The notes beneath the pieces are model-generated. The model did no database searches. It was given only the letters and a program-made list of their open reading frames with translations, and was not told the origin of the DNA. From the NCBI RefSeq assembly GCF_025751495.1, contig NZ_JAOWKZ010000005.1, forward strand, positions 124,001 to 188,000: 64,000 nucleotides of DNA, given 5' to 3'. Made by a program: the position numbers and the translations under genes. The number at the start of each line of letters is the position of its first letter. Within the stretch, counting starts at the first letter, position 1. The stretch is from Albidovulum litorale. GTDB lineage: Bacteria; Pseudomonadota; Alphaproteobacteria; Rhodobacterales; Rhodobacteraceae. This document shows, in pieces, positions 29,704 to 42,003 of this stretch.

Positions 29704-30852
29704 TCAGGCGTCGTGGACGTAGAAGCGCCCCTGGGTGTTCGCCGCCTCTTCGAGCTTTGCGAAGGCATCCATCGACCCCGCCAGATCAGTCTTGAACTTG
29801 TCCCATTCGGGCCGCTGGTAGCCGCCGGCCTCCTGCCACTCGGCAAGCTGATCTTGCGAGAGCGTATGGAATTCGACCCCGGCCTTGCGCAGTTCCGACA
29901 TCGCGTAGTTGCGCGCTGCCGGCACCTTGGCGAGGTTCTGCTGGCGGGTGATAGAGCCCGCAAACATGATGCCTTCCTGCACGTCGCCCGGCAGCCCGTT
30001 GAACCATTCGAGGTTCATCGAGTAGATCTGGCTGTCCGGCACCGCCTGGGTGAAGGTGACGTGGCTCAGGATGTCCTTGAAGCCGAAGACGTAGAGTGCG
30101 CCTACAGATGGGTCGAGCGCATCGGCGACACCCTGCTTGATCGCCGACGGTGTTTCACCCCAGGCGACCGGAGTCGGGTTGGCGCCGACCATCCGGTAGT
30201 ATTGCTGCAGCATTTCGGACCCCGGCACCCGGAACTTGACGCCCGACAGGTCGGACGGCGACAGGACCGGACCGGCCCCGCCCTTGCGCATTGCGACAAC
30301 GCGCGGATCGATGTTGACGTAGAACAGGGCCTTGAAGCCTGACGCTTCGACCTTTGGATTGACCTCAGACTGCCATGCCTCAGAGGAAATGAGGTTCTCG
30401 AACCTTTGGTTGGATCCGCAGAAATAGGGCAGGTTGATCAGGTCGACCACGCTGGCGAACGGTGCGAAGTTCGACAGCGAGTGCTGCGCGCACTGGATCG
30501 TGCCGGTTTGAACGCCCTGCGCCAGCGCGCCACCGGCGCCCAACTGGCCACCCGGCGCGAGTTTGACATAGACCTTGCCGTCGGTGGCGTTCTGGATGTT
30601 CTCTTTGAGATCGAGCTGCATGATCGGATAGCTGCGGTCTGCCGTCAGCACATAAGCGGTCGCCAGCGTCATGATGTGCTCGGCCGCCGCCTCGCGCTCT
30701 TTCTCCTCGTTGGCTGTCTGGGCCACTGCTTCGGATGACCAGAGCGTTCCCCCGGCCCCGGCGACCACGGCGGCGGTAAAGCTTCCGCTTGCCGTGAGTT
30801 TCAGGAAATTGCGGCGTTCGGCCGATTCCACTTCCTTGCGGTCTTTATCCAA
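29704..30852 (-). CDS. TRAP transporter substrate-binding protein (DctP), Tat-exported
   Basis: Periplasmic ligand-binding subunit, 382 residues. A classical twin-arginine signal is present, ERRNFLKLTASGSF (12-25), followed by a hydrophobic stretch and cleavage near AVAQ. The DctP fold includes GGQLGAGGALAQGVQTGTIQ and GVKFRVPGSEMLQQYYRMVG, the latter with the conserved arginine that holds carboxylate or sulfonate groups. The start codon is TTG, with GGGAGGA six bases upstream; no better ATG or GTG lies nearby. First TRAP gene of the sulfonate operon. Confidence 0.92.
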   Translation of the reverse strand: MDKDRKEVESAERRNFLKLTASGSFTAAVVAGAGGTLWSSEAVAQTANEEKEREAAAEHIMTLATAYVLTADRSYPIMQLDLKENIQNATDGKVYVKLAPGGQLGAGGALAQGVQTGTIQCAQHSLSNFAPFASVVDLINLPYFCGSNQRFENLISSEAWQSEVNPKVEASGFKALFYVNIDPRVVAMRKGGAGPVLSPSDLSGVKFRVPGSEMLQQYYRMVGANPTPVAWGETPSAIKQGVADALDPSVGALYVFGFKDILSHVTFTQAVPDSQIYSMNLEWFNGLPGDVQEGIMFAGSITRQQNLAKVPAARNYAMSELRKAGVEFHTLSQDQLAEWQEAGGYQRPEWDKFKTDLAGSMDAFAKLEEAANTQGRFYVHDA

Positions 30853-30874
30853 ATCTCGTCCTCCCGTTGGACTG

Positions 30875-31060
30875 TCAGCCGCCGGCTTTGTCTTTCTGCG
30901 CGGCTTCCCGTTTCAGAATGGCCGCGACGAACAGCACCGACGCGGCGAACAGAACCAGCATTTCCCCGACATCGCTCAGGAAGGTATTTCCGGTCGCTGC
31001 CCCCAGCGCGACGTTGGCGGTAAAAACCGCGAACATGACGAGCGAGGCGACGAGAAACAT
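30875..31060 (-). CDS. Small two-helix membrane protein, first gene of the sulfonate operon
   Basis: 61-residue product with two hydrophobic segments, FLVASLVMFAVFTANVALGA (2-21) and MLVLFAASVLFVAAILKREA (34-53), and a charged C-terminal tail (QKDKAGG). AGGAG stands nine bases before the ATG, and it lies 22 bp ahead of the TRAP binding-protein gene and directly behind the LacI operators. Its size, topology and ribosome-binding site make it a real gene. Function unknown; possibilities include an accessory subunit of the TRAP system or a membrane partner of a sulfolactate-oxidising enzyme. Confidence 0.7.
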   Translation of the reverse strand: MFLVASLVMFAVFTANVALGAATGNTFLSDVGEMLVLFAASVLFVAAILKREAAQKDKAGG

Positions 31061-31095
31061 GAGCTGAGACTCCTGTCGGAATGATTCTGCGTATA

Positions 31096-31111
31096 ATGTA
31101 AGCGCTTACAT
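31096..31111. promoter_or_regulatory. Palindromic LacI-type operator 1
   Basis: ATGTAAGCGCTTACAT is a perfect 16-bp palindrome with the central CG typical of LacI/GalR operators. It lies 36 bp upstream of the small membrane protein gene (minus strand) and 94 bp upstream of the lacI-type gene (plus strand), so one regulator can control both directions. Confidence 0.8.
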
Positions 31112-31118
31112 CACGTAA

Positions 31119-31134
31119 ATGCAAGCCTTTACAT
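31119..31134. promoter_or_regulatory. LacI-type operator 2 (imperfect)
   Basis: ATGCAAGCCTTTACAT matches operator 1 at 13 of 16 positions. The centres are 23 bp apart, about two helical turns, so two dimers could bind the same DNA face. Confidence 0.65.
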
Positions 31135-31204
31135 TGGCTGTGCGGGCAGATTACTTTTTGAACATGAAACAACGGCACCCATCGTCGCATCTGTCGGGCA
31201 AGTC

Positions 31205-32245
31205 ATGACCATTCCGCGTTCCGCCCCCACATTGAACGATGTTGCGCAGGCGGCAGGCGTTTCCACGGCGACGGTGTCACGGTGCCTGAACACGCCCGAA
31301 CGCGTCATCGACAGCACGCGTGAGCGGGTGATGAAAGCCGTGCAAGAGCTTGGATACACGCCGAATTTCGGCGCCCGTGTCATGGCGGCACGACGCACCA
31401 ACACGATTGGCGCCATCATTCCGACCATGGAGAACGCGGTCTTTGCGCGGGGGTTGCAGGCCTTTCAGGAGGGTTTGAGGGAAAGCGGTTTCACGCTTCT
31501 GGTGGCAAGCTCGTCCTACCGGTCAGACATCGAAGAGGAACAGATCCGCGCCCTTGTCGCACGGGGTGCCGACGGTCTGCTGTTGATCGGACATGACCGC
31601 GACCCGGCCATACTGGCCTACCTGCAGGCGCAGAACATCCCGGTTCTGGTCGCATGGAGTTTCGACCCGGGTGCGTTGCTGCCTTCGGTCGGTTTCGACA
31701 ACCGCCGGTCCATGCAGGCCCTTGCCGATACCGTCATCGGGATGGGGCATCGCCGCATCGGCGTCATCTCGGCGATCACGCGCGGCAACGACCGCGCGCG
31801 GTTGCGGCTGGCCGGAATTCGCGATGCGGTTGCACTGGCCGGGCTCGGTGAGGATGCGGTTACCGTGATCGAAACCACCTATGCAATCGAGACCGGCGCG
31901 GAGGCCTTTGAGGCGCTGATGACATCGCAACAGCCGCCGACTGTGGTCATGTGCGGCAACGACGTTCTGGCTGTCGGCGCAATGAAGAAAGCGCGCGAGC
32001 TTGGTCTTGACGTACCGCGCGATGTGTCGATCACGGGGTTCGACGATATTGAACTGGCCAGTCTCGTCGATCCGGCGCTGACCACCGTGCATGTGCCGCA
32101 CCGGGAGATGGGGCGGCGGGCGGCACGGGCGCTGATCGAGATGGTCGATCACGGTCGGTCCGTACCGAGCGAGGAACTGGCCGCCAATGTCTGCATGAGA
32201 GGGTCGGTCGCCCTGCCCGGTCGCGACACCGGCGCAACAGCCTGA
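31205..32245 (+). CDS. LacI family transcriptional regulator of the sulfonate operon
   Basis: 346 residues: an N-terminal helix-turn-helix, TLNDVAQAAGVSTATVSRCL (10-29), with hinge helix, then a periplasmic-binding-protein-like ligand domain (NTIGAIIPTMENAVFARGLQ; VSITGFDDIELASLVDPALT). Divergent from the sulfonate operon across a 144-bp gap holding two matching palindromes, so it almost certainly represses that operon and itself. The inducer is probably the imported sulfonate or a pathway intermediate. The C-terminal half is of typical length. Confidence 0.92.
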   Translation: MTIPRSAPTLNDVAQAAGVSTATVSRCLNTPERVIDSTRERVMKAVQELGYTPNFGARVMAARRTNTIGAIIPTMENAVFARGLQAFQEGLRESGFTLLVASSSYRSDIEEEQIRALVARGADGLLLIGHDRDPAILAYLQAQNIPVLVAWSFDPGALLPSVGFDNRRSMQALADTVIGMGHRRIGVISAITRGNDRARLRLAGIRDAVALAGLGEDAVTVIETTYAIETGAEAFEALMTSQQPPTVVMCGNDVLAVGAMKKARELGLDVPRDVSITGFDDIELASLVDPALTTVHVPHREMGRRAARALIEMVDHGRSVPSEELAANVCMRGSVALPGRDTGATA

Positions 32246-32312: not shown

Positions 32313-32747
32313 TCAGCTTCTGATCACATAGACCGAACATTTGGCGTGGCGCACCACCCGGGCGGCGTTGGGACCCAGAAAATAGTCGCGGAAATCCGGA
32401 CGATGCGCGCCAATCACGATGAGGCTGGCGCCCACCTCGTCGGCGGTGGCAAGAATTTCCTGATAGGCCGTGCCGTGCCGGACGATATGGGTGATGTTCT
32501 TGTCCTCTGGCGCACCGAGGCATCCCGATATCGCGGCATGAAGCGATGTCGCCGCCTCTTTCAGCGCGCGCTTTTCTGCGTCTTCGCTGAAATAGGTGCC
32601 CACGATGCTCATCCCGAAATCAGGAATGACGGTCACCACAGCCAGCGAGGCACCGTCCATACCGGCCAGTTTCTGCGCCCGGGTCAGAATGTCTGCATGA
32701 TGCTCGGGATGAGAAAGGTCGATCGCAACCAGAACTGTATTGGTCAT
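32313..32747 (-). CDS. Universal stress protein family protein coupled to a TAXI-TRAP transporter
   Basis: 144-residue Usp domain: TVLVAIDLSHPEHHADILTR (4-23), then SLIVIGAHRPDFRDYFLG and [16 protein letters not shown] at the nucleotide-binding end. Its start overlaps the fused TRAP permease stop by 4 bp and follows AAGGAG, so its production is tied to the transporter. Known precedent: TeaD, an ATP-binding Usp, modulates the TeaABC TRAP importer. Shares its C-terminal motif with the Usp at 24.2-24.6 kb. Confidence 0.9.
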   Translation of the reverse strand: MTNTVLVAIDLSHPEHHADILTRAQKLAGMDGASLAVVTVIPDFGMSIVGTYFSEDAEKRALKEAATSLHAAISGCLGAPEDKNITHIVRHGTAYQEILATADEVGASLIVIGAHRPDFRDYFLGPNAARVVRHAKCSVYVIRS

Positions 32748-35338
32748 GCCGCAACTCCTTCGGCTTCCAGCGCGAGCTTTCGCCGGCGCTGCATGAACGC
32801 GACACCGGCGAGGAGGATGAATGCCGGGATGTAGAAGATCTCCTTGCGCATCCGGTTGGCCGAGACTTCCAGTTCGGCAACCTCCCAGTCGAAGTCGATG
32901 CCAAGCTGTTCAGCCGTTCCGCCGAAATTCAGGTTGTCGACAAAGATCTTGCCGTCTTCCTCGCGGAACTCGATCCCGGCCGCATCCATGAGGCGGGTCG
33001 GGCCATCGGCACCGGCCGCCCCGAGAGGCAGCAGGTATCGGGCATCGACAGGATCGCCATAGAGATCCTCTCCTATCACTCGGACGCGTATCGATGCGTC
33101 GTCACCTGCCTGTTCCGCCCGCTCGAAAAGTTCGATGCCGGGACGCGCCTCGAATTTCGGGGTGATCTGATCCATGAAGAAGCCCGGCCGGAAGAGCATG
33201 AGGGCAACGAGCAGCAAAATCGCGCTTTCCCACAGCTTCGATGGCACGATGAAATAGTTCATCGTTGCCGCAGCAAAGAGCAGCATCGCGATTGTCGCCA
33301 CGATGAAGATCACCACGGCATGGGCTGGACCGACATTGATCAGCAGAAGGTCGGTGTTGAAGACGAAGAGGAACGGCAGAAGCGCCGTGCGGATCGAGTA
33401 GAAGAAAGCCTGGAAGCCGGTCTTCAACGGATCCGCCCCGGAAATCGCGGCGGCCGCGAAGCTCGCAAGGCCAACGGGCGGTGTCACATCGGCCATGATG
33501 CCGAAATAGAAGACGAACATATGCACCGCGATCAGCGGTACGATCAGCCCCGATTGCGCGCCAAGCTCGACCACAACACCGGCCATCAGCGACGAGACGA
33601 CGATATAGTTGGCCGTCGTCGGCAGGCCCATGCCGAGGATGATCGAGATGAGCGCGACGAAGAACAGCATCGCCATCAGGTTGCCACCGGACAGGAATTC
33701 GACGAATTCCGCCATGACCTGACCGATCCCGGTCAGTGTGACGGCGCCCACGATGATGCCCGCGACACCCATGGCGGCCGCGAGACCGACCATGTTGCGC
33801 GCGCCGTCGATGAGCCCTTCGGCGATTTCGGTGAAGCCCCTTTTCGTTTCGTCCATCATGTCGGCGTTCTTGCGGAAGAAGGCCTTGATCGGGTGCTGCG
33901 TCGCGAGGATCACCAGCATGAAGATCGCCGACCAGAAGGCAGAAGCGCCGGGCGATTTCCGCTCGATCATCAGGAGATACATCAGAAGCAGGATCGGCAT
34001 GATGTAGTGAATGCCGGTCTTGAAGATCTCCTTGGTCGGCGGCAGATGCTCCATCGATTCAAGGCTCATCTCCAGATCCGGCTGGCGTGCGGCATAGGCA
34101 AGGGCCGCCACATAGGACACCGCGATCAGGGCAAGAATGACCCAGAGCGACGGATCGCCAAGCGCGGTGTTCAGGACGCGGACGATGAATCCGCAGAGCC
34201 AGAGCGTCCCCCCGGCGATGATGATCGAGATCGCGATCATGAACACCGCGCCCAGCATGAACTTAACGGGGTGCATCTTGCTGGTGCCGGGCAGCTTCAT
34301 CTTCAGCGCCTCAAGATGGACGATGTAGATGAGCGCGATGTAGGAAATCGCCGCCGGGACGATGGCGGTCTTGACGACCTCGACATAGGAGACGCCGACA
34401 TATTCTGTCATCAGGAACGCGACCGCACCCATGACGGGCGGCGTCAGCACGCCGTTGACGGAAGACGAAACCTCAACCGCGCCCGCCTTGGTGGCTGGGA
34501 AACCGACTTTCTTCATCAGCGGGATGGTGAAGGTGCCGGTCGTTACCACGTTGGCGATGGAGGAGCCGGAGATCAGGCCCGTCGCCGCCGAGGCGATGAC
34601 GGCGGCCTTTGCCGGTCCGCCGCGCAGATGGCCAAGTGCTGCAAAGGCGAGTTGCAGGAAGTAGTTGCCGGCACCCGCCTTGTTCAAAAGCGCGCCGAAC
34701 AGAACGAAGAGGAAGACGAAGCCCGACGACACGCCGAGCGCCACGCCATAGACGCCCTCGGTCGTCAGCATCAGGTGGCTCATCGCCTTTTCGAACGACG
34801 CGCCTTTCCAGCGCACGACCTCGGGCAGCCCGTCCCATGATCCGAAGAAGACATAGGCGAGGAAGAAGAGCGCGACACCCATCAGCGGGAAGCCGAGCGA
34901 CCGGCGCGCGGCCTCCATCAGCAGGACGATGCCGATGCCGGCCATGACAAGGTCGGTGGTATTGGGGATGCCGGTGCGCGCGGCGACGCCGGAATAGTCC
35001 CACCACTGGTAGGAGGCCGCGGCCGCCGCAACGATTGCCGTGATCCAGGTAAGGACCGGAATATGGTTGCGTGGACTGGACTTGAAGGCGGGGAAAAGAA
35101 GATAGGCAAGCAGGACCGCAAAGCCGAGGTGAATGGCGCGGGTCTGGGTGTCGTTCCAGAGACCGACGCCCAGAAGGAAGGGCAGGGGCGAGGCGATCCA
35201 GAGCTGGAACAGCGACCAGATCAGCGGCGTCCACCAGAGCAGGCGGCGGGCATAAAGCTGGTCGGGATTGCGTCCGCCGGAATCCGCCTGTGCGACGAGG
35301 TCTTCCAGTTCACTGGTTGCGGTTGCCTTGTCGGTCAT
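32744..35338 (-). CDS. TRAP transporter fused permease, TAXI type, with DUF3394 C-terminus
   Basis: Single polypeptide of 864 residues combining the small (DctQ) and large (DctM) permease units, as usual for TAXI-TRAP systems. Blocks include FASPLPFLLG-like leading helices, GLISGSSIANVVTTGTFTIP, LGMGLPTTANYIVVSSLMAG and VTPPVGLASFAAAAISGADP. After about residue 690 comes a soluble region (RPGIELFERAEQAGDDASIR) fitting DUF3394, ending in a last helix. I prefer the ATG at 35338 (GGGAGAG upstream) over the in-frame GTG two codons earlier. Its stop couples to the Usp gene. Confidence 0.9.
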   Translation of the reverse strand: MTDKATATSELEDLVAQADSGGRNPDQLYARRLLWWTPLIWSLFQLWIASPLPFLLGVGLWNDTQTRAIHLGFAVLLAYLLFPAFKSSPRNHIPVLTWITAIVAAAAASYQWWDYSGVAARTGIPNTTDLVMAGIGIVLLMEAARRSLGFPLMGVALFFLAYVFFGSWDGLPEVVRWKGASFEKAMSHLMLTTEGVYGVALGVSSGFVFLFVLFGALLNKAGAGNYFLQLAFAALGHLRGGPAKAAVIASAATGLISGSSIANVVTTGTFTIPLMKKVGFPATKAGAVEVSSSVNGVLTPPVMGAVAFLMTEYVGVSYVEVVKTAIVPAAISYIALIYIVHLEALKMKLPGTSKMHPVKFMLGAVFMIAISIIIAGGTLWLCGFIVRVLNTALGDPSLWVILALIAVSYVAALAYAARQPDLEMSLESMEHLPPTKEIFKTGIHYIMPILLLMYLLMIERKSPGASAFWSAIFMLVILATQHPIKAFFRKNADMMDETKRGFTEIAEGLIDGARNMVGLAAAMGVAGIIVGAVTLTGIGQVMAEFVEFLSGGNLMAMLFFVALISIILGMGLPTTANYIVVSSLMAGVVVELGAQSGLIVPLIAVHMFVFYFGIMADVTPPVGLASFAAAAISGADPLKTGFQAFFYSIRTALLPFLFVFNTDLLLINVGPAHAVVIFIVATIAMLLFAAATMNYFIVPSKLWESAILLLVALMLFRPGFFMDQITPKFEARPGIELFERAEQAGDDASIRVRVIGEDLYGDPVDARYLLPLGAAGADGPTRLMDAAGIEFREEDGKIFVDNLNFGGTAEQLGIDFDWEVAELEVSANRMRKEIFYIPAFILLAGVAFMQRRRKLALEAEGVAA

Positions 35339-35372
35339 TTCCACTCTCCCCGTCCCATACTGGTATCATGTG

Positions 35373-35422: not shown

Positions 35423-36394
35423 TTACATCCAGCCGCGTTCCTTGTAGTACTTTTCGGCGCCCGGATGCAGCGGAGCGGTCAGGCCGTCCTTGATCATTTC
35501 GGACTCGACCAGCATTCCGAAGGCCGGATGCAACTGCTTGAAGTCCTCAAAGTTTTCGAAGATCGCTTTGACCACGGCATAGACCACGTCGTCGGGCACG
35601 TTCGCCGACGTCACAATGGTTGCCTTCGGACCCCAGGACGGTATGTCGTCGGCATTGCCGGGATACATGCCGCCTGGAATGGTCGCCGCCGCATAGGCCG
35701 GGTTTTCGGCCAGAAGCTTGTCTATACCCGGTCCCGTGAGCGGAATGATCTTCACGTCACAGGTCGATGTCGCTTCCTGGCTGGAGCCATTTGGCAGACC
35801 CGCTGCCCAGATCGTCGCGTCGATATTGCCGTCGCAAAGTGCGGCGGACTGCTCCGACGACTTCAGCTCAGCCGTGAGCCCGAAGTCGGACGTGTTGATC
35901 CCTTCGTAATGCAGAAGCGTTTCGGCCAGAACCCGCGTCCCCGAGCCGGGGTTGGCGATGTTGATCTTCTTGCCCTTGAAGTCCGCGGTCGTGTTGATCC
36001 CGGAATCAGCCCGCGCCATGACGTGCAGTGGTTCGGGATGAACCGAGAAGAGCGAGCGAAGGTCCGGGTAGGGGCCATCTTCCTCGAAAGCACCTGAACC
36101 GGCGATCGAAGCTGTCTGAACGTCGGACTGGACCACGCCGAAATCAAGTTCGCCCTGACGGATCGTGCGGGCGTTGTAGACGGAGCCGCCCGTGGATTCG
36201 ACCGAGCAGCGGATGCCGTGTTCCTTGCGGTCCTTGTTGACCAGACGGCAGATGGCGCCCCCTGTCGGATAGTAGACGCCGGTAACACCGCCGGTCCCGA
36301 TCGTGATGAAGCGCTGTTCCTGGGCTGACGCCCCCGCAGCAAACGAAACTGCGGCAGCAGCGGCCATACCGAACAATAGCTTGTTCAATGTCAT
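35423..36394 (-). CDS. TAXI family TRAP transporter substrate-binding protein
   Basis: Periplasmic binding protein of the TAXI (TRAP-associated extracytoplasmic immunogenic) family, 323 residues. Sec signal MTLNKLLFGMAAAAAVSFAAG with cleavage after ASA; TIGTGGVTGVYYPTGGAICR (31-50) is the family signature. A GGAGG lies 5 bases before the ATG. It begins the TAXI-TRAP-Usp operon and is 88 bp downstream of the RpiR regulator gene on the same strand. Ligand unknown; in this context probably the methylated amine or amino acid used by the divergent catabolic operon. Confidence 0.92.
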   Translation of the reverse strand: MTLNKLLFGMAAAAAVSFAAGASAQEQRFITIGTGGVTGVYYPTGGAICRLVNKDRKEHGIRCSVESTGGSVYNARTIRQGELDFGVVQSDVQTASIAGSGAFEEDGPYPDLRSLFSVHPEPLHVMARADSGINTTADFKGKKINIANPGSGTRVLAETLLHYEGINTSDFGLTAELKSSEQSAALCDGNIDATIWAAGLPNGSSQEATSTCDVKIIPLTGPGIDKLLAENPAYAAATIPGGMYPGNADDIPSWGPKATIVTSANVPDDVVYAVVKAIFENFEDFKQLHPAFGMLVESEMIKDGLTAPLHPGAEKYYKERGWM

Positions 36395-36482: not shown

Positions 36483-37370
36483 CTAATGTTTTTTTTGCGC
36501 GACCCAGTAGGCGTTATGCGCGACCCGCAAATCCTCGTATTTCCTGATTCGTGTTTCGGTCGTCTGGTCGCCGCCCTGAAAGATCATCGCCAGCAGTATT
36601 TCCAGAACCGCCATGGCCCCTGAATTGCACGCGAAATGGTGTGTGCTGTTGGTTGAAACCAGAAGTGAGATGTCTGGTTTGAAATGCGGGGCGACCACTT
36701 CGGAATCGGTGACGAACACCACGGTCGCGCCGCGCGACTTGGCGAACATCGCTGCCTCGATCGTTTCCCGCGAGTAGGGCGTAAAGGTCACCGCGAGCAC
36801 GACATCGCCCGGTCCCGCATCGCTCAGTTCATCAATCGCGCTGCCGACGTGGCTTGGGGCTAATTGTATGGATTTCAACGCCATTCTGGCGATGTAATGA
36901 AAGTGGAACGCAAGCCCGTAGCTGGCGCGCATTGCAGTCACGTAGACTGTCCGCGCCTGCAGCATAAGGTCAGCGACCCGTTCCAGTTTTTCCGTCGACT
37001 GGCGCTGCAACGACCTTTGAACCACGGCCAGAGAGTTCAGGGTCGCGGTGGCATGGGCTACGCCCGCAGGGCCGCTGTCCCGAAGCTCGTCGACCCATTC
37101 CCGGCCGTCCACATCCTCAGTCGATGATACCAGCGCATGACGGAACGGTTCGCGCATATCGTCATAGCCTGCGAACCCCATCTGATGCGCCATCCGGACA
37201 AGTGTGAATGTGCTGACGCCCGATTTCCGTGCCGTCTCGCGGATCGAGTCCAAGCCGAACTCGGCCGGATTATCGAGAATGTATTTCGCGACCGTTTTCA
37301 GGCGCGGCGAGAGCGTCGGCGCGATCTCCTTAAGCCTTGAAATCGTTCTGGTTCTTAGCGTTGGGTCCAT
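36483..37370 (-). CDS. RpiR family transcriptional regulator
   Basis: 295 residues with an N-terminal RpiR helix-turn-helix (ISRLKEIAPTLSPRLKTVAK, 10-29, through GVSTFTLVRMAHQMGFAGYD) and a C-terminal SIS domain (about 125-260: YVTAMRASYGLAFHFHYIAR and GDVVLAVTFTPYSRETIEAA) that normally senses a phosphosugar or other small ligand. It lies between the TAXI-TRAP genes and the divergent demethylase operon, so it probably regulates both. RpiR regulators of amine or amino-acid use occur in related bacteria. Confidence 0.9.
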   Translation of the reverse strand: MDPTLRTRTISRLKEIAPTLSPRLKTVAKYILDNPAEFGLDSIRETARKSGVSTFTLVRMAHQMGFAGYDDMREPFRHALVSSTEDVDGREWVDELRDSGPAGVAHATATLNSLAVVQRSLQRQSTEKLERVADLMLQARTVYVTAMRASYGLAFHFHYIARMALKSIQLAPSHVGSAIDELSDAGPGDVVLAVTFTPYSRETIEAAMFAKSRGATVVFVTDSEVVAPHFKPDISLLVSTNSTHHFACNSGAMAVLEILLAMIFQGGDQTTETRIRKYEDLRVAHNAYWVAQKKH

Positions 37371-37400: not shown

Positions 37401-37417
37401 ATAATATCATATGTTAT
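37401..37417. promoter_or_regulatory. Imperfect AT-rich palindrome, possible RpiR operator
   Basis: ATAATATCATATGTTAT has a CATATG core and agrees with its own complement at 12 of 17 positions. It lies 31 bp from the RpiR start and 87 bp from the demethylase start. A related AT-rich string, CGTTATATGTTT, is found at about 36434 in front of the TAXI gene. Operator role is a guess from position. Confidence 0.35.
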
Positions 37418-37503
37418 TTTTTGTCGACATTGACCAGCAATGTGATTTCTCAAATGCTTGGGTGGCCGATTGATTGCGGCCAGCCCATGTGACGGGAAGC
37501 ACC

Positions 37504-39897
37504 ATGTCCAAGCCTCTACCAGCCCACGCCTCGGTCGTCGTGATCGGCGGCGGCATCATGGGGTGTTCGACGCTCTACCATCTGGCCAAGATGGGGGTGG
37601 GTGATGCAATCCTGCTGGAACGCAACAAGCTTACATCGGGCACCACCTGGCATTCCGCAGCACAGGTCCGTGCGTTGCGCCACTCGCGCAACCTGACGCG
37701 GATGATCCAGTATTCGGTCGACCTCTACAGCCAGTTGGAAAAGGAGACGGGCCAGAGCGTCGGCTGGATCCAGAAGGGATCGCTGTCGATCGCCACGACG
37801 CCTGATCGCCTGACCCATATCAGGCGGCAGGAGGCACTGGCACGTGCCTTCGGGATCGAGGTGCGTCCGGTCAGTGCGGGTGAGGCGAAGGAACGCTGGC
37901 CGCTTATGAATGCCGATGACGTGCTCGGTGCGGTCTGGTCGCCGCAGGATGGGCGTGTCAGCCCGTCCGATGTCTGCGCGGCTTTGGTCAAGGCCGCCCG
38001 CGGTCTCGGCGCGGCGATCTTTGAGGATACCGGGGTGACCGGCATCCTGACCGAACGCGGCCATGTGCGCGGGGTGGAGACCAGCCGGGGCGTGATCATG
38101 TGCGACGCCATCGCGATCTGCGCCGGGCTCTGGTCACGCGAGGTGGCGGCGATGGCCGGGGCCGAGGCGCCGCTTCTGGCCTGCGAGCATTTCTACCTGC
38201 TGACCAAACCCATCGACGGGATCACCGGCAACATGCCGACCCTGTCGGACCATGACAGCCACCTTTACATTCGCGATGACAGCGGCGGCCTGCTCGTTGG
38301 CTGCTTTGAACCGATGGGCAAGCCCATCGCCCCCGGCATCCTCGACGAAAGTTTCCAGTTCGGCCTGTTGCCCGAGGATTGGGACCATTTCGAGCCGATG
38401 ATGCTCAATGCGCTGCACCGGTTGCCGGCGCTTGAGACGGCCGAGGTGAAGATGCTCCTGAACGGGCCGGAAAGCTTCACGCCAGACGGCACCTTCATGC
38501 TGGGCGAGGCTGCCGAGACGCGGGGGCTTTTCTTCGGTTGCGGCATGAATTCGGTCGGGCTTGCCTCGGGCGGCGGCGCGGGCATGAACCTCGCGCATTC
38601 CATCGTGCATGGTCACACCGCCTATGACCTGACCGAAGCTGATGCCAAACGCTTCGCGCCGGTTTTCAACTCGTTCGAGCATCTGATGGCGCGGGCGCCC
38701 GAGATCCTTGGAACACATTACGACATCGCCTATCCGGGCAAGCAGCTAAAGACCGCCCGCGATCTGCGCAAACTGCCGCTCGATGCCGAGTACCGCCGCG
38801 CCGGGGCGCATTTCGGGCAATTCTTCGGCTGGGAGCGGCCCCTGTATTTCAACAAGACAGCAGAGCCGCGCCTGACTTTCGGACGACCGGACTGGTTCGG
38901 GAACGTCGCCGCCGAGGTGCGCGCCGCGCATGAAGGGGCCGCGATCTTTGACGCCTCGCCTTTCGGCAAGATCGAGGTCACCGGGCCGGATGCCGAGGCC
39001 TTCCTGATGAAGACCTGCGCGGGGCACATGAACCGCGCGCCGGGATCGGTGATCTATTCCGCCGTTCTGAACGGCCGCGGCACGTTCGAGGCTGATATCA
39101 CCGCGCAGCGGATCGCGGCAGACCACTATCGCCTGTTCACCGGTGCCGCTTCCATCAAGCGTGACCTCGCCTGGTTCCGGCGCCATGCCGAGGGGTTCGA
39201 CGTAGACCTTGCCGACAGCACCGAAGACTACGCCGTCCTCTCGCTCATGGGTCCCGATGCGGCGCGGATCGTTTCGCAATGTGGCGCGCCTGAACTGAAC
39301 GATCTGGGGTATTTCAAGGTCGGCCCCGGCCATATCGCGGGCAAACATGTGCGCGCGGCCCGGATGTCCTATGTCGGCGAGGCGGGGTGGGAGATCACCT
39401 GCAAGGCGGAAAACGCCGCGATCATCTACGCGGCTTTGGTGGCGGCGGGTGCCGTACCGGCGGGTCTTTACGCGCAAACATCCATGCGGGTCGAGAAAGG
39501 CTTTCGTGCGATGGGCCATGAGCTTGACAGCGATGTCTCGCCGATCGAGGCCGGGCTTGACTTCGCGACACGAAAGTCGGGCGGATTCATCGGCTTCGAT
39601 GCGCTGGCGGACCGCCGCAAACAGGGGGTGAAATCCAAGATCGTGTCGCTGGTGCTGGACGATGGGGACGCTGTGGCGCTTGGTCACGAGCCGGTTCTTC
39701 TGGGCGGTGTTATAATCGGTCAGACCAGTTCCTGCGCGTTCGGATACCGGGTTGGGAAACCTGTCGCGCTTGCGCATATCCGAGACCCGCTTGCCGATGG
39801 AACAGAGGTCCTGATCGACATCGCGGGGCAGAACTTTGCTGCTCGTGTGGTCAATGGTCCGGTTTTCGATCCGGACGGCTTGAGAATGAAGGGGTAG
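37504..39897 (+). CDS. DMGDH-like FAD-dependent demethylase with GcvT-type folate domain
   Basis: 797-residue two-part enzyme. N-terminal half: FAD-binding amino-acid oxidase domain (VVVIGGGIMGCSTLYHLAKM, 11-30; His50 in TSGTTWHSAAQ, the position of covalent FAD attachment in dimethylglycine dehydrogenase). C-terminal half (from about 430): GcvT/aminomethyltransferase domains (GPDAEAFLMKTCAGHMNRAP; GEAGWEITCKAENAAIIYAA) that pass the released methyl carbon to tetrahydrofolate. Removes an N-methyl group from a secondary or tertiary amino acid; dimethylglycine, sarcosine or another N-methyl compound. Start at the ATG behind GGGAAG, not the in-frame codon 30 bases earlier. Confidence 0.88.
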   Translation: MSKPLPAHASVVVIGGGIMGCSTLYHLAKMGVGDAILLERNKLTSGTTWHSAAQVRALRHSRNLTRMIQYSVDLYSQLEKETGQSVGWIQKGSLSIATTPDRLTHIRRQEALARAFGIEVRPVSAGEAKERWPLMNADDVLGAVWSPQDGRVSPSDVCAALVKAARGLGAAIFEDTGVTGILTERGHVRGVETSRGVIMCDAIAICAGLWSREVAAMAGAEAPLLACEHFYLLTKPIDGITGNMPTLSDHDSHLYIRDDSGGLLVGCFEPMGKPIAPGILDESFQFGLLPEDWDHFEPMMLNALHRLPALETAEVKMLLNGPESFTPDGTFMLGEAAETRGLFFGCGMNSVGLASGGGAGMNLAHSIVHGHTAYDLTEADAKRFAPVFNSFEHLMARAPEILGTHYDIAYPGKQLKTARDLRKLPLDAEYRRAGAHFGQFFGWERPLYFNKTAEPRLTFGRPDWFGNVAAEVRAAHEGAAIFDASPFGKIEVTGPDAEAFLMKTCAGHMNRAPGSVIYSAVLNGRGTFEADITAQRIAADHYRLFTGAASIKRDLAWFRRHAEGFDVDLADSTEDYAVLSLMGPDAARIVSQCGAPELNDLGYFKVGPGHIAGKHVRAARMSYVGEAGWEITCKAENAAIIYAALVAAGAVPAGLYAQTSMRVEKGFRAMGHELDSDVSPIEAGLDFATRKSGGFIGFDALADRRKQGVKSKIVSLVLDDGDAVALGHEPVLLGGVIIGQTSSCAFGYRVGKPVALAHIRDPLADGTEVLIDIAGQNFAARVVNGPVFDPDGLRMKG

Positions 39898-39901
39898 GGT
39901 T

Positions 39902-40672
39902 ATGGCACCGGCTTTCATCATGGTGGCCCCGACGGGTGCGCGGCGGACACCGGCGGACCATCCGGCACTGCCGGTCACGCTTCCCGATATCGTTGAGACT
40001 GCCCGCGCCTGCCATGCCGCCGGGGCGGCGGCCCTGCACCTGCATATCCGCGACGATCAGGGCGTCCATTCGCTCGATCCGGGCCGATACCGCGAAACTT
40101 TGGCAGAGCTCGCCCGGACAGTGCCGACGATGCGTGTTCAGGTAACGACGGAATCGGCGGGGATCTTCTCCGTCGGGGATCAGCTCGCGACCCTTACCGC
40201 ATTGCACCCCGAATGGGTCAGCCTTTCGATCCGCGAGGTCGCGCGGGAGCCGGAACTCGCCGACAGGGTCTATGGCACCTGCGCGGCTGCCGGGACGGAG
40301 ATCCAGCATATCCTCTACGATACCGACGATATCCGCCTGCTAACCGAGTGGACGTCGAAGGGCATCGTGCGACCGGACCAGACGAGCGTCATCCTCGTCC
40401 TTGGGCGCTACAGCGCCGGGCAGGTGTCCAACCCGGCCGATCTTCCCCCGTTTCACGCGCAACTGTCGACCGGGCACCGCTGGATGCTGTGCGCCTTCGG
40501 TGCGCGGGAGCATGAATGCCTACGCGCGGCGCATGCGCTTGGCGGTGATCTTCGGGTCGGTTTCGAAAACAGCCTGACGGATGCAACAGGAACGCCCCAT
40601 GCGTCGAATGCCGCATCCGTTGCCGCACTGATCGCATCTCTTGGCCAACAGACCGAAAGGAACACGGTATGA
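39902..40672 (+). CDS. Beta-keto acid cleavage enzyme (BKACE, DUF849 family)
   Basis: Zinc enzyme that splits a beta-keto acid with acetyl-CoA, giving acetoacetate and a new CoA ester (or the reverse distribution); the founding member Kce works in lysine fermentation. In the 256-residue product the metal ligands are exactly placed, His46 and His48 in ALHLHIRDDQG, with Glu222 in RVGFENS. It is shorter than most family members (about 270-310). It lies 4 bp after the demethylase and overlaps the aminotransferase start by 4 bp. BKACE substrates vary widely, so the keto acid is unknown. Confidence 0.88.
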   Translation: MAPAFIMVAPTGARRTPADHPALPVTLPDIVETARACHAAGAAALHLHIRDDQGVHSLDPGRYRETLAELARTVPTMRVQVTTESAGIFSVGDQLATLTALHPEWVSLSIREVAREPELADRVYGTCAAAGTEIQHILYDTDDIRLLTEWTSKGIVRPDQTSVILVLGRYSAGQVSNPADLPPFHAQLSTGHRWMLCAFGAREHECLRAAHALGGDLRVGFENSLTDATGTPHASNAASVAALIASLGQQTERNTV

Positions 40673-42003
40673 GCCACGTTTTCCCCCGCCATTGCCACGG
40701 CACCTTTCCTACCGCGACCGGCGGTGACGGATGCTTTTTGATCGACGCAAGCGGAAAGCGCTATTTTGACGGATCGGGGGGCGCTGCGGTGTCCTGCCTC
40801 GGTCATTCGAACGAGCGGGTGAAGCAGGCGATCAAGGACCAGGTCGACCAGCTCGCCTTTGCCCATACGGGCTTCTTCACCTCCGAGCCCGCCGAAGAGC
40901 TTGCCGATCTTCTGATCGCGAATGCGCCGGGCGATCTTGACCGGGTTTATTTCGTTTCGGGCGGGTCCGAGGCGACCGAAGCTGCGATCAAGCTGGCGCG
41001 CCAGTACTTCGTCGAGCGGGGCGAGCCGCAGCGCCGCCACCTGATCGCGCGGCGGCAAAGCTATCACGGCAACACGCTTGGCGCGCTGGCCGCAGGCGGT
41101 AACGAATGGCGGCGCCAGCAATTCGCGCCGCTACTGATCGAGGTAAGCCACATCGCGCCCTGTTACGAATATGTCGAGCGGGCAGAGGATGAGACGCCGG
41201 AAGACTACGGGTATCGGGCCGCGCAGGAATTGGAGAAAGAAATCCTGCGGCTGGGACCGGATACGGTCATGGCGTTCATGGCCGAGCCGGTCGTGGGCGC
41301 AACCATGGGTGCCGTGCCGCCCGCGCCCGGTTATTTCACGCGCATCCGCGAGATCTGCGACAAATACGGGGTTCTCCTGATCCTCGACGAGGTCATGTGC
41401 GGGATGGGGCGGACCGGCCATCTGTTCGCCTGCGAGGCCGAGGGCATTGCCCCCGATATCCTCTGCATCGCCAAGGGGCTGGGCGCCGGGTATCAGCCGA
41501 TCGGGGCCATGCTGTGTTCTTCCGGTGTTTACGACACGATCGCGGGCGGTACGGGGTTCTTCCAGCACGGTCATACCTATATCGGCCATCCGGTCGCCGC
41601 GGCCGCGGGTCTGGCGGTGGTGCGGGAGCTTCTCGACCGGGGATTGGTGGCGCAGGCGCGTGAACGGGGAATGTACCTTGGCGAACAGCTCCGCGCGCGG
41701 TTCGCCCAGCATCCGCATGTCGGCGATATCCGCGGACGCGGCATGTTCTGGGGGCTGGAATTCGTCGCCGACCGCGACACCAAGACACCCTTCGATCCAA
41801 AGCTGGGGGTCGCCGGGAAACTGAAAAAGGCCGCCTTTGCAGAGGGACTGATCTGTTACCCGATGCCGGGGACGCGCGATGGCAAGCATGGCGATCACGT
41901 CCTCCTCGCGCCGCCGTTCATCGCCTCGGAAGCGGAGCTTTCGGATGCGCTGGATGCGCTCGGGCGGGCGATTTCGACGGTGATCGGGGCTGCCACCGCG
42001 TGA
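40669..42003 (+). CDS. Class III aminotransferase
   Basis: PLP enzyme of the omega-amino-acid:pyruvate/diaminopelargonate type, 444 residues. Landmarks: YFDGSGGAAVSCLGHSNERV (24-43), VSGGSEATEAAIKLARQYF, the PLP aspartate in ILDEVMCGMGRTG and the Schiff-base Lys269 in CIAKGLGAGYQPIGA. Start overlaps the BKACE stop. In operon order it would turn a primary beta- or omega-amine into the keto acid that BKACE cleaves. The frame ends 25 bp from the convergent EamA gene. Confidence 0.9.
   Translation: MSHVFPRHCHGTFPTATGGDGCFLIDASGKRYFDGSGGAAVSCLGHSNERVKQAIKDQVDQLAFAHTGFFTSEPAEELADLLIANAPGDLDRVYFVSGGSEATEAAIKLARQYFVERGEPQRRHLIARRQSYHGNTLGALAAGGNEWRRQQFAPLLIEVSHIAPCYEYVERAEDETPEDYGYRAAQELEKEILRLGPDTVMAFMAEPVVGATMGAVPPAPGYFTRIREICDKYGVLLILDEVMCGMGRTGHLFACEAEGIAPDILCIAKGLGAGYQPIGAMLCSSGVYDTIAGGTGFFQHGHTYIGHPVAAAAGLAVVRELLDRGLVAQARERGMYLGEQLRARFAQHPHVGDIRGRGMFWGLEFVADRDTKTPFDPKLGVAGKLKKAAFAEGLICYPMPGTRDGKHGDHVLLAPPFIASEAELSDALDALGRAISTVIGAATA

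Follow-up and report, generated by a model that had tools for sequence, protein, structure and literature searches.

In the window analyzed here, a 64,000 bp stretch of the Albidovulum litorale genome [contig NZ_JAOWKZ010000005.1, positions 124,001–188,000; genome size 4.05 Mb, 13 contigs], we studied three adjacent genes of the forward strand that encode a flavin adenine dinucleotide (FAD)/folate N-demethylase, a zinc protein of the BKACE fold (DUF849, PF05853) and a class III aminotransferase, together with a divergent importer of the TAXI-TRAP type. We tentatively propose, giving this proposal somewhat less than an even chance, that they form an operon for the breakdown of a glutamate-like beta-amino diacid carrying N-methylation and that the pathway ends with a breakdown step independent of coenzyme A (CoA). 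According to this scheme, the TAXI-TRAP system would import the N-methylated compound, the demethylase would strip its N-methyl group or groups to give methylenetetrahydrofolate and a primary amine, the aminotransferase would convert this amine to a beta-keto diacid, and the BKACE-fold protein would split off CO2 from the diacid (or hydrolyze it) without acetyl-CoA. In the simplest case, N-methyl-beta-glutamate would be converted to beta-glutamate (3-aminoglutarate), then to 3-oxoglutarate and finally to acetoacetate and CO2. No description of the demethylase/BKACE/aminotransferase trio was found in the literature searched, subscription journals being mostly outside its reach.

The demethylase gene (37504–39897, 797 aa, dimethylglycine dehydrogenase-like) is separated by 4 bp from the BKACE-fold gene (39902–40672), which overlaps the aminotransferase gene (40669–42003) by 4 bp; the genes of an RpiR-type regulator, a TAXI protein, a fused TRAP permease and a universal stress protein are all divergent from the trio. 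Thus, the coordinates of open reading frames and the profiles confirmed the tight coupling of the trio and the divergent position of regulator and importer reported in the initial annotation. The first start found for the demethylase reading frame is a TTG at 37474, and an ATG is located at 37504. The protein contains the Pfam domains DAO, FAO_M, GCV_T and GCV_T_C, and its best solved matches were dimethylglycine dehydrogenase (DMGDH) [4p9s] and dimethylglycine oxidase (DMGO) [1pj5]. By alignment count, its residues H50, H229, Y255 and D531 align with H48, H225, Y259 and D552 of DMGO, which we take to be the covalent-flavin histidine, the catalytic histidine and tyrosine, and the folate-site aspartate, respectively. 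Its paralogues in the same genome share no more than 39% identity with it. In one of the related loci (L029) the gene is present as a tandem pair, which suggests that in some cases two methyl groups are removed. The aminotransferase (Aminotran_3) is of the NF005685/PRK07483 type (762.7 bits at a cut-off of 485).

The conservation of this arrangement was analyzed in 73 loci (45 relative loci and 28 further loci of the phylum), all of them gathered via the BKACE-fold gene. Distances were counted from this gene, with limits of 3 kb for the aminotransferase, 3.5 kb for the demethylase and 8.5 kb for the TAXI gene. The aminotransferase was found nearby in 60 loci, the RpiR regulator in 44, TAXI in 41 and the TRAP permease in 40, while a demethylase gene was present in 21 loci (full-length in 18) and absent from 52. 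For a second sample, drawn from the taxonomic family, 60 of 80 match places were fetched and nine repeats (at least 98% identity in the BKACE-fold gene) were dropped; seven more of the 80 places corresponded to the window or to loci already in the set. Among the resulting 51 loci, the aminotransferase was found in 41, TAXI in 26 and the demethylase gene in seven. The arrangement was found again in many genera and is therefore not due to chance. Of the genomes compared, 32 of 398 from the phylum and 77 of 295 from the taxonomic family contain the clade of BKACE-fold proteins described below; the closest relative found was Defluviimonas aestuarii (L005), with a BKACE-fold protein 92% identical to that of the window. 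The conserved core thus consists of the BKACE-fold protein and the aminotransferase, and the demethylase is an add-on. The earlier assignment of the trio to one pathway is supported, the demethylase being accessory to a commoner two-gene core.

Thirteen of the 73 loci have no aminotransferase of this type nearby. In one of them (L025) the sequence stops 35 bases past the match. In four (L086, L092, L096 and L100) a gene of the 3-hydroxyacyl-CoA/carnitine-dehydrogenase type (3HCDH) adjoins the BKACE-fold gene, and in L086 a different class III aminotransferase is also located alongside. In three others (L026, L044 and L089) the adjoining gene encodes a class V pyridoxal phosphate (PLP) enzyme. 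The remaining five are L008, L083, L101, L103 and L105, of which L083 resembles L086 in gene sizes. Since a transaminase and a 3-hydroxyacid dehydrogenase both lead to a beta-keto acid, the dehydrogenase and class V partners support the view, already taken from the window alone, that the intermediate is probably a beta-keto acid. Demethylation followed by transamination, also part of the initial annotation, is supported as well, the order of the steps being what we infer.

It should be mentioned that other genes were occasionally found next to the core. A TctC binding protein gene is located in the neighbourhood in L100, and the gene that follows the BKACE-fold gene in L026 (10001–12981) encodes a class V PLP enzyme fused to a PF04199 cyclase domain. 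A GNAT acetyltransferase gene, identified by profile in L007 (10756–11178) and by gene clustering in L015 and L033, lies between the two core genes. A molybdenum hydroxylase beside the core in Ruegeria (L046) was rejected as a part of the pathway and is read as genus-level synteny, other Ruegeria loci having genes of similar size and order. The A. litorale genome itself contains a canonical BKACE paralogue (L116; G000:C8:877678–879895) of the Ile14 type with both catalytic Glu and Asp. Some 60 bp separate it from a class III aminotransferase match that shares 43% identity with the window protein; judged by these residues, it is a second aminotransferase/BKACE pair with normal catalytic residues. 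In addition, an aminotransferase homologue broken by one TGA was revealed at G000:C9:291033–292337.

The AlphaFold2 model of the BKACE-fold protein is a TIM barrel with a mean predicted local distance difference test score (pLDDT) of 94.6, and its best fold match in the PDB is Kce [2y7d]; further DUF849 proteins, cis-epoxysuccinate hydrolase and ObcA came next. We compared its residues in an alignment of 73 rows comprising the window, 44 of the 45 relative loci and 28 of 32 other places, with L044 (broken), G388, G319, G361 and G247 left out; another sequence set (A1) included 44 of 46 sequences, without L011 and the broken L044. Kce numbering was derived by counting in alignments and from the Kce residue names. 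The zinc ligands His46, His48 and Glu222, as well as Arg218, are kept in all 73 clade members. Equally invariant are Ile137 at the position of the catalytic base (Kce Glu143), Asn223 at the position of the active-site Asp (Kce Asp231), Gln135 in place of Kce Glu141, Glu84 in place of Kce Gly84, and Glu112; Tyr139 is present in 72 members. At position 14, where Kce has a glutamate as ligand of the substrate amine, 68 of 73 members have Arg and two rows lack the residue, the exceptions being Ser in L089 (class V partner) and Tyr in L096 and L100 (dehydrogenase partner). Nine loci without the aminotransferase keep Arg14, so the link between the two is not strict. The natural reading of Arg14 is a substrate with an acidic end, which this residue only suggests.

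For comparison we used 90 other family members from about 109 match rows, excluding 11 clade rows, seven fragments (one with a stop) and G051:C4. The base position is Glu in 82 of these 90 proteins, and the Asp is present in all of them. In BKACE15 the base was proposed to be Glu171, the variant E171L being inactive, while earlier work had proposed for this role the Arg that is kept in our clade (PMC11961710); Glu171 corresponds to Kce position 143 because Kce Tyr145 corresponds to BKACE15 Tyr173. The statement that all BKACEs have an equivalent of Tyr145 (PMC12871164) did not hold here, as 59 of 82 canonical members have Phe, and it was not used. At the position of BsfD Lys254, which contacts CoA (PMC12871164), Lys or Arg was found in none of the 73 clade members versus 66 of 82 canonical ones, and the beta4–beta5 stretch is 25–30 residues long in the clade versus 32–58 in the canonical members. 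In the family tree (FastTree, 119 rows including 29 of the 73 clade rows) the clade forms one side of a branch with a support of 99, long branches being flagged. Several groups in the match rows lack the catalytic Glu, and the clade is the largest of them (11 rows versus 5, 2 and 1).

Thus, the sequences place the BKACE-fold protein in a coherent clade that has kept the zinc ligands and lost the base, the Asp and the CoA contact. The initial annotation had proposed subgrouping by the residues around His46, His48 and Glu222; these three are preserved throughout, but the catalytic Glu and Asp are missing from every member. Its assumption of acetyl-CoA-dependent cleavage is unsupported because of the same losses and that of the CoA-contacting Lys/Arg, and decarboxylation of a beta-keto diacid without CoA appears likelier. 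The beta-alanine-type substrate that it suggested is disfavoured by Arg14 and by the glutamate-type pocket of the TAXI protein described below. A lone divergent DUF849 member (L197; G091:C4:260512–261222) resembles the clade in Arg14, His20 and Glu112 while keeping the Asp and having Gly at the base position; it is located on a long branch and is possibly an intermediate.

The substrate type may be indicated by the importer. The TAXI solute-binding protein (35423–36394, reverse strand; TIGR02122, TRAP_TAXI) is 57% identical to VcGluP [8s4j], which binds L-glutamate at 0.065 µM and, more weakly, glutamine, pyroglutamate and D-glutamate, and for which no thermal shift was reported with aspartate, 2-oxoglutarate, adipate and lysine (PMC11574862). 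All 42 operon TAXI proteins of the first sample have kept the VcGluP residues holding glutamate (Y45, S75, Q93, H123 and E125). The contact positions S40, D157, Y200 and M201 are changed in the window protein; in VcGluP, M201 contacts the amino group of the ligand through its main chain (PMC11574862). VcGluP reads YMVGH at positions 200–204. In the first sample we found WAAGL at these positions in all 20 TAXI proteins whose operon contains a demethylase gene (full-length in 18, truncated or broken in L025 and L031) and [YF][TG][VI]GH in all 22 whose operon lacks it. The second sample (26 loci with TAXI) gave WAAGL in 6/6 and YT[VI]GH in 20/20, so that both samples together show 26/26 and 42/42, respectively.

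The pocket sequence therefore varies together with the demethylase gene. L012, whose core is close to that of the demethylase operons (aminotransferase 78% identical), nevertheless lacks a demethylase and has a TAXI protein of the other type, and the same is true of L087 (76%). When trees of the four proteins were compared for the same set of 29 operons, demethylase presence required one change in the case of TAXI and TRAP and three in the case of the BKACE-fold protein and the aminotransferase, a weak contrast in that the starred branches force just one change on each tree. Larger and unequal sets of rows gave five changes for the BKACE-fold protein (43 rows), three for the aminotransferase (43), and one each for TAXI (30) and TRAP (30). 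The argument for a link between importer and demethylase rests on the pocket residues and not on the tree contrast; to judge by these residues, the link is well supported. As the demethylase and the importer travel together, the imported compound would most simply be the one that is demethylated, and the aromatic and hydrophobic lining that replaces Thr and His may suit an N-methyl group.

Among the identified metabolites of Nitrosopumilus maritimus, beta-glutamate is the most abundant (730 mM), and in both profiles its level was higher in deep than in surface water (PMC8269262). It can be hypothesized, with more doubt than for the general scheme, that the clade comprises CoA-independent 3-oxoglutarate decarboxylases which, together with the aminotransferase and a VcGluP-like importer, constitute the bacterial pathway for beta-glutamate that has been missing so far, the window variant handling the N-methylated form by means of the additional demethylase and an altered importer. 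N-methyl-beta-glutamate is a prediction.

Several alternatives have to be weighed against the proposed decarboxylation of a glutamate-like diacid. The substrate and steps may be the same and the BKACE-fold protein may still cleave with acetyl-CoA, by means of a base relocated to E84 or E112 (3-oxoglutarate + acetyl-CoA -> malonyl-CoA + acetoacetate). The invariance of these two glutamates, the retention of the zinc ligands and R218, the nearly invariant Y139 and the position of Kce as the closest fold all agree with this possibility. We consider it unlikely in view of the replacement of base and Asp in every member, the absence of the CoA-contacting Lys/Arg, the shortened beta4–beta5 stretch and the inactivity of the BKACE15 variant with a substitution at the base position (PMC11961710). 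A comparably low probability is given to a different amino diacid resembling glutamate, such as a longer or hydroxylated homologue, whose keto acid would not be 3-oxoglutarate. A VcGluP-like pocket fixes just a glutamate-like frame, VcGluP itself accepts other ligands more weakly (PMC11574862), and Arg14 does no more than suggest an acidic end, Ser or Tyr being found at this position in loci with other partners; beta-glutamate is, however, the simplest fit and abundant in marine archaea (PMC8269262).

Two further readings break up the scheme and appear less probable still. In one of them, which we regard as improbable, the demethylase makes glutamate from N-methylglutamate, and the aminotransferase and BKACE-fold protein serve another compound. 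The glutamate-type pocket with its demethylase-linked change agrees with it; glutamate, however, needs no such core, and 21 of 21 demethylase genes stand beside a clade BKACE-fold gene (19 of these 21 loci also having TAXI), a co-occurrence that is partly due to construction because the loci were gathered by this gene. The least probable alternative is a route from N-methyl-beta-alanine or a related betaine via beta-alanine and malonate semialdehyde to a BKACE reaction. A beta-alanine:pyruvate transaminase and a BKACE do work together as a designed module in Escherichia coli, but the clade lacks the base on which activity depended in the enzyme assayed with malonate semialdehyde (PMC11961710), and the importer pocket and Arg14 also speak against such a substrate. 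Malonate semialdehyde as a substrate of the clade was rejected on the same three grounds, and 3-dehydrocarnitine or other cationic beta-keto acids were rejected since position 14 is Arg and not Glu or Asp.

A number of observations weigh against the proposed pathway itself. The new glutamates E84 and E112 could act as a base for ordinary cleavage. The aminotransferase of the NF005685/PRK07483 type is not near the BKACE-fold gene in 13 of 73 and 10 of 51 loci, and neither demethylase nor TAXI was found in 24 of the 51 loci of the second sample. The TAXI proteins of the demethylase type form one clade, and the pocket switch may therefore be a single event; moreover, the substitutions Y200A and M201A affect glutamate binding by VcGluP modestly (PMC11574862). 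L216 contains a full demethylase gene with no TAXI within reach, and the demethylase gene is truncated or broken in two of the 20 loci having both this gene and TAXI, L025 (8297–8965) and L031 (9055–9998), which have kept the WAAGL pocket, and in L042 (7383–7744), which has no TAXI. We know of no report of N-methyl-beta-glutamate as a natural compound, and no search for one was made. Finally, DUF849 was divided into groups of which G6 (70 of 725 proteins) is described as not BKACE, showing decarboxylation and activity with beta-ketoglutarate, and G7 (139 proteins) as inactive (both via PMC4922564). Our clade, presumably also a group without BKACE activity, has a similar share of the family (11 of about 109 rows), which fits G6 but also a G7 subgroup of the same size; it may therefore belong to either.

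The remaining genes of the locus are located on the reverse strand. The RpiR-type regulator (36483–37370; HTH_6 and SIS profiles) is separated from the demethylase gene by a divergent promoter region containing an operator-like palindrome, AATATCATATGTTATT (37403–37418). In 31 hand-chosen loci (p ≤ 0.05 versus shuffles), similar palindromic sites were found in 15 of 21 loci with this RpiR type, the window and its near-copy L005 counted, and in 0 of 10 loci with the other type. The TAXI gene is accompanied by genes for the fused TRAP permease (32744–35344; TIGR02123, TRAP_fused, DUF3394) and a universal stress protein (32313–32747; PF00582). Past this operon (29704–32245) lie a gene for a DctP-type TRAP binding protein (reverse strand) and a gene for a LacI-type regulator (forward strand), a pair that among the 45 relative loci was present in the near-identical L005 only.

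If the proposed pathway is correct, it would represent an undescribed nutrient route in a marine-type bacterium, and a widespread non-canonical BKACE-fold clade would acquire a reaction and a substrate, its annotation as a cleavage enzyme being wrong. The fate of beta-glutamate, an osmolyte of ammonia-oxidising archaea, would become testable with genes, the WAAGL pocket would allow uptake of the N-methylated form to be recognized from sequence, and N-methylated beta-glutamate would be predicted as an undescribed marine osmolyte.

Comparison with known systems revealed both common and distinct features. With the BKACE family (Kce [2y7d]; Paracoccus BKACE15 [8rip]) the clade shares the fold, the three zinc ligands and Arg218, and it differs in the changes Glu to Ile and Asp to Asn, in the lack of the CoA-contacting Lys/Arg and in the presence of E84, E112 and Arg14. 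The window TAXI protein differs from VcGluP in S40G, T124P, D157T, Y200W, M201A, V202A and H204L. Four domains and the aligned catalytic residues are common to the demethylase and the dimethylglycine dehydrogenase/oxidase family. In module 2 of the CORE cycle, as in our proposal, a transaminase feeds a BKACE; that module, however, is designed, uses malonate semialdehyde and contains a BKACE with the catalytic Glu (PMC11961710).

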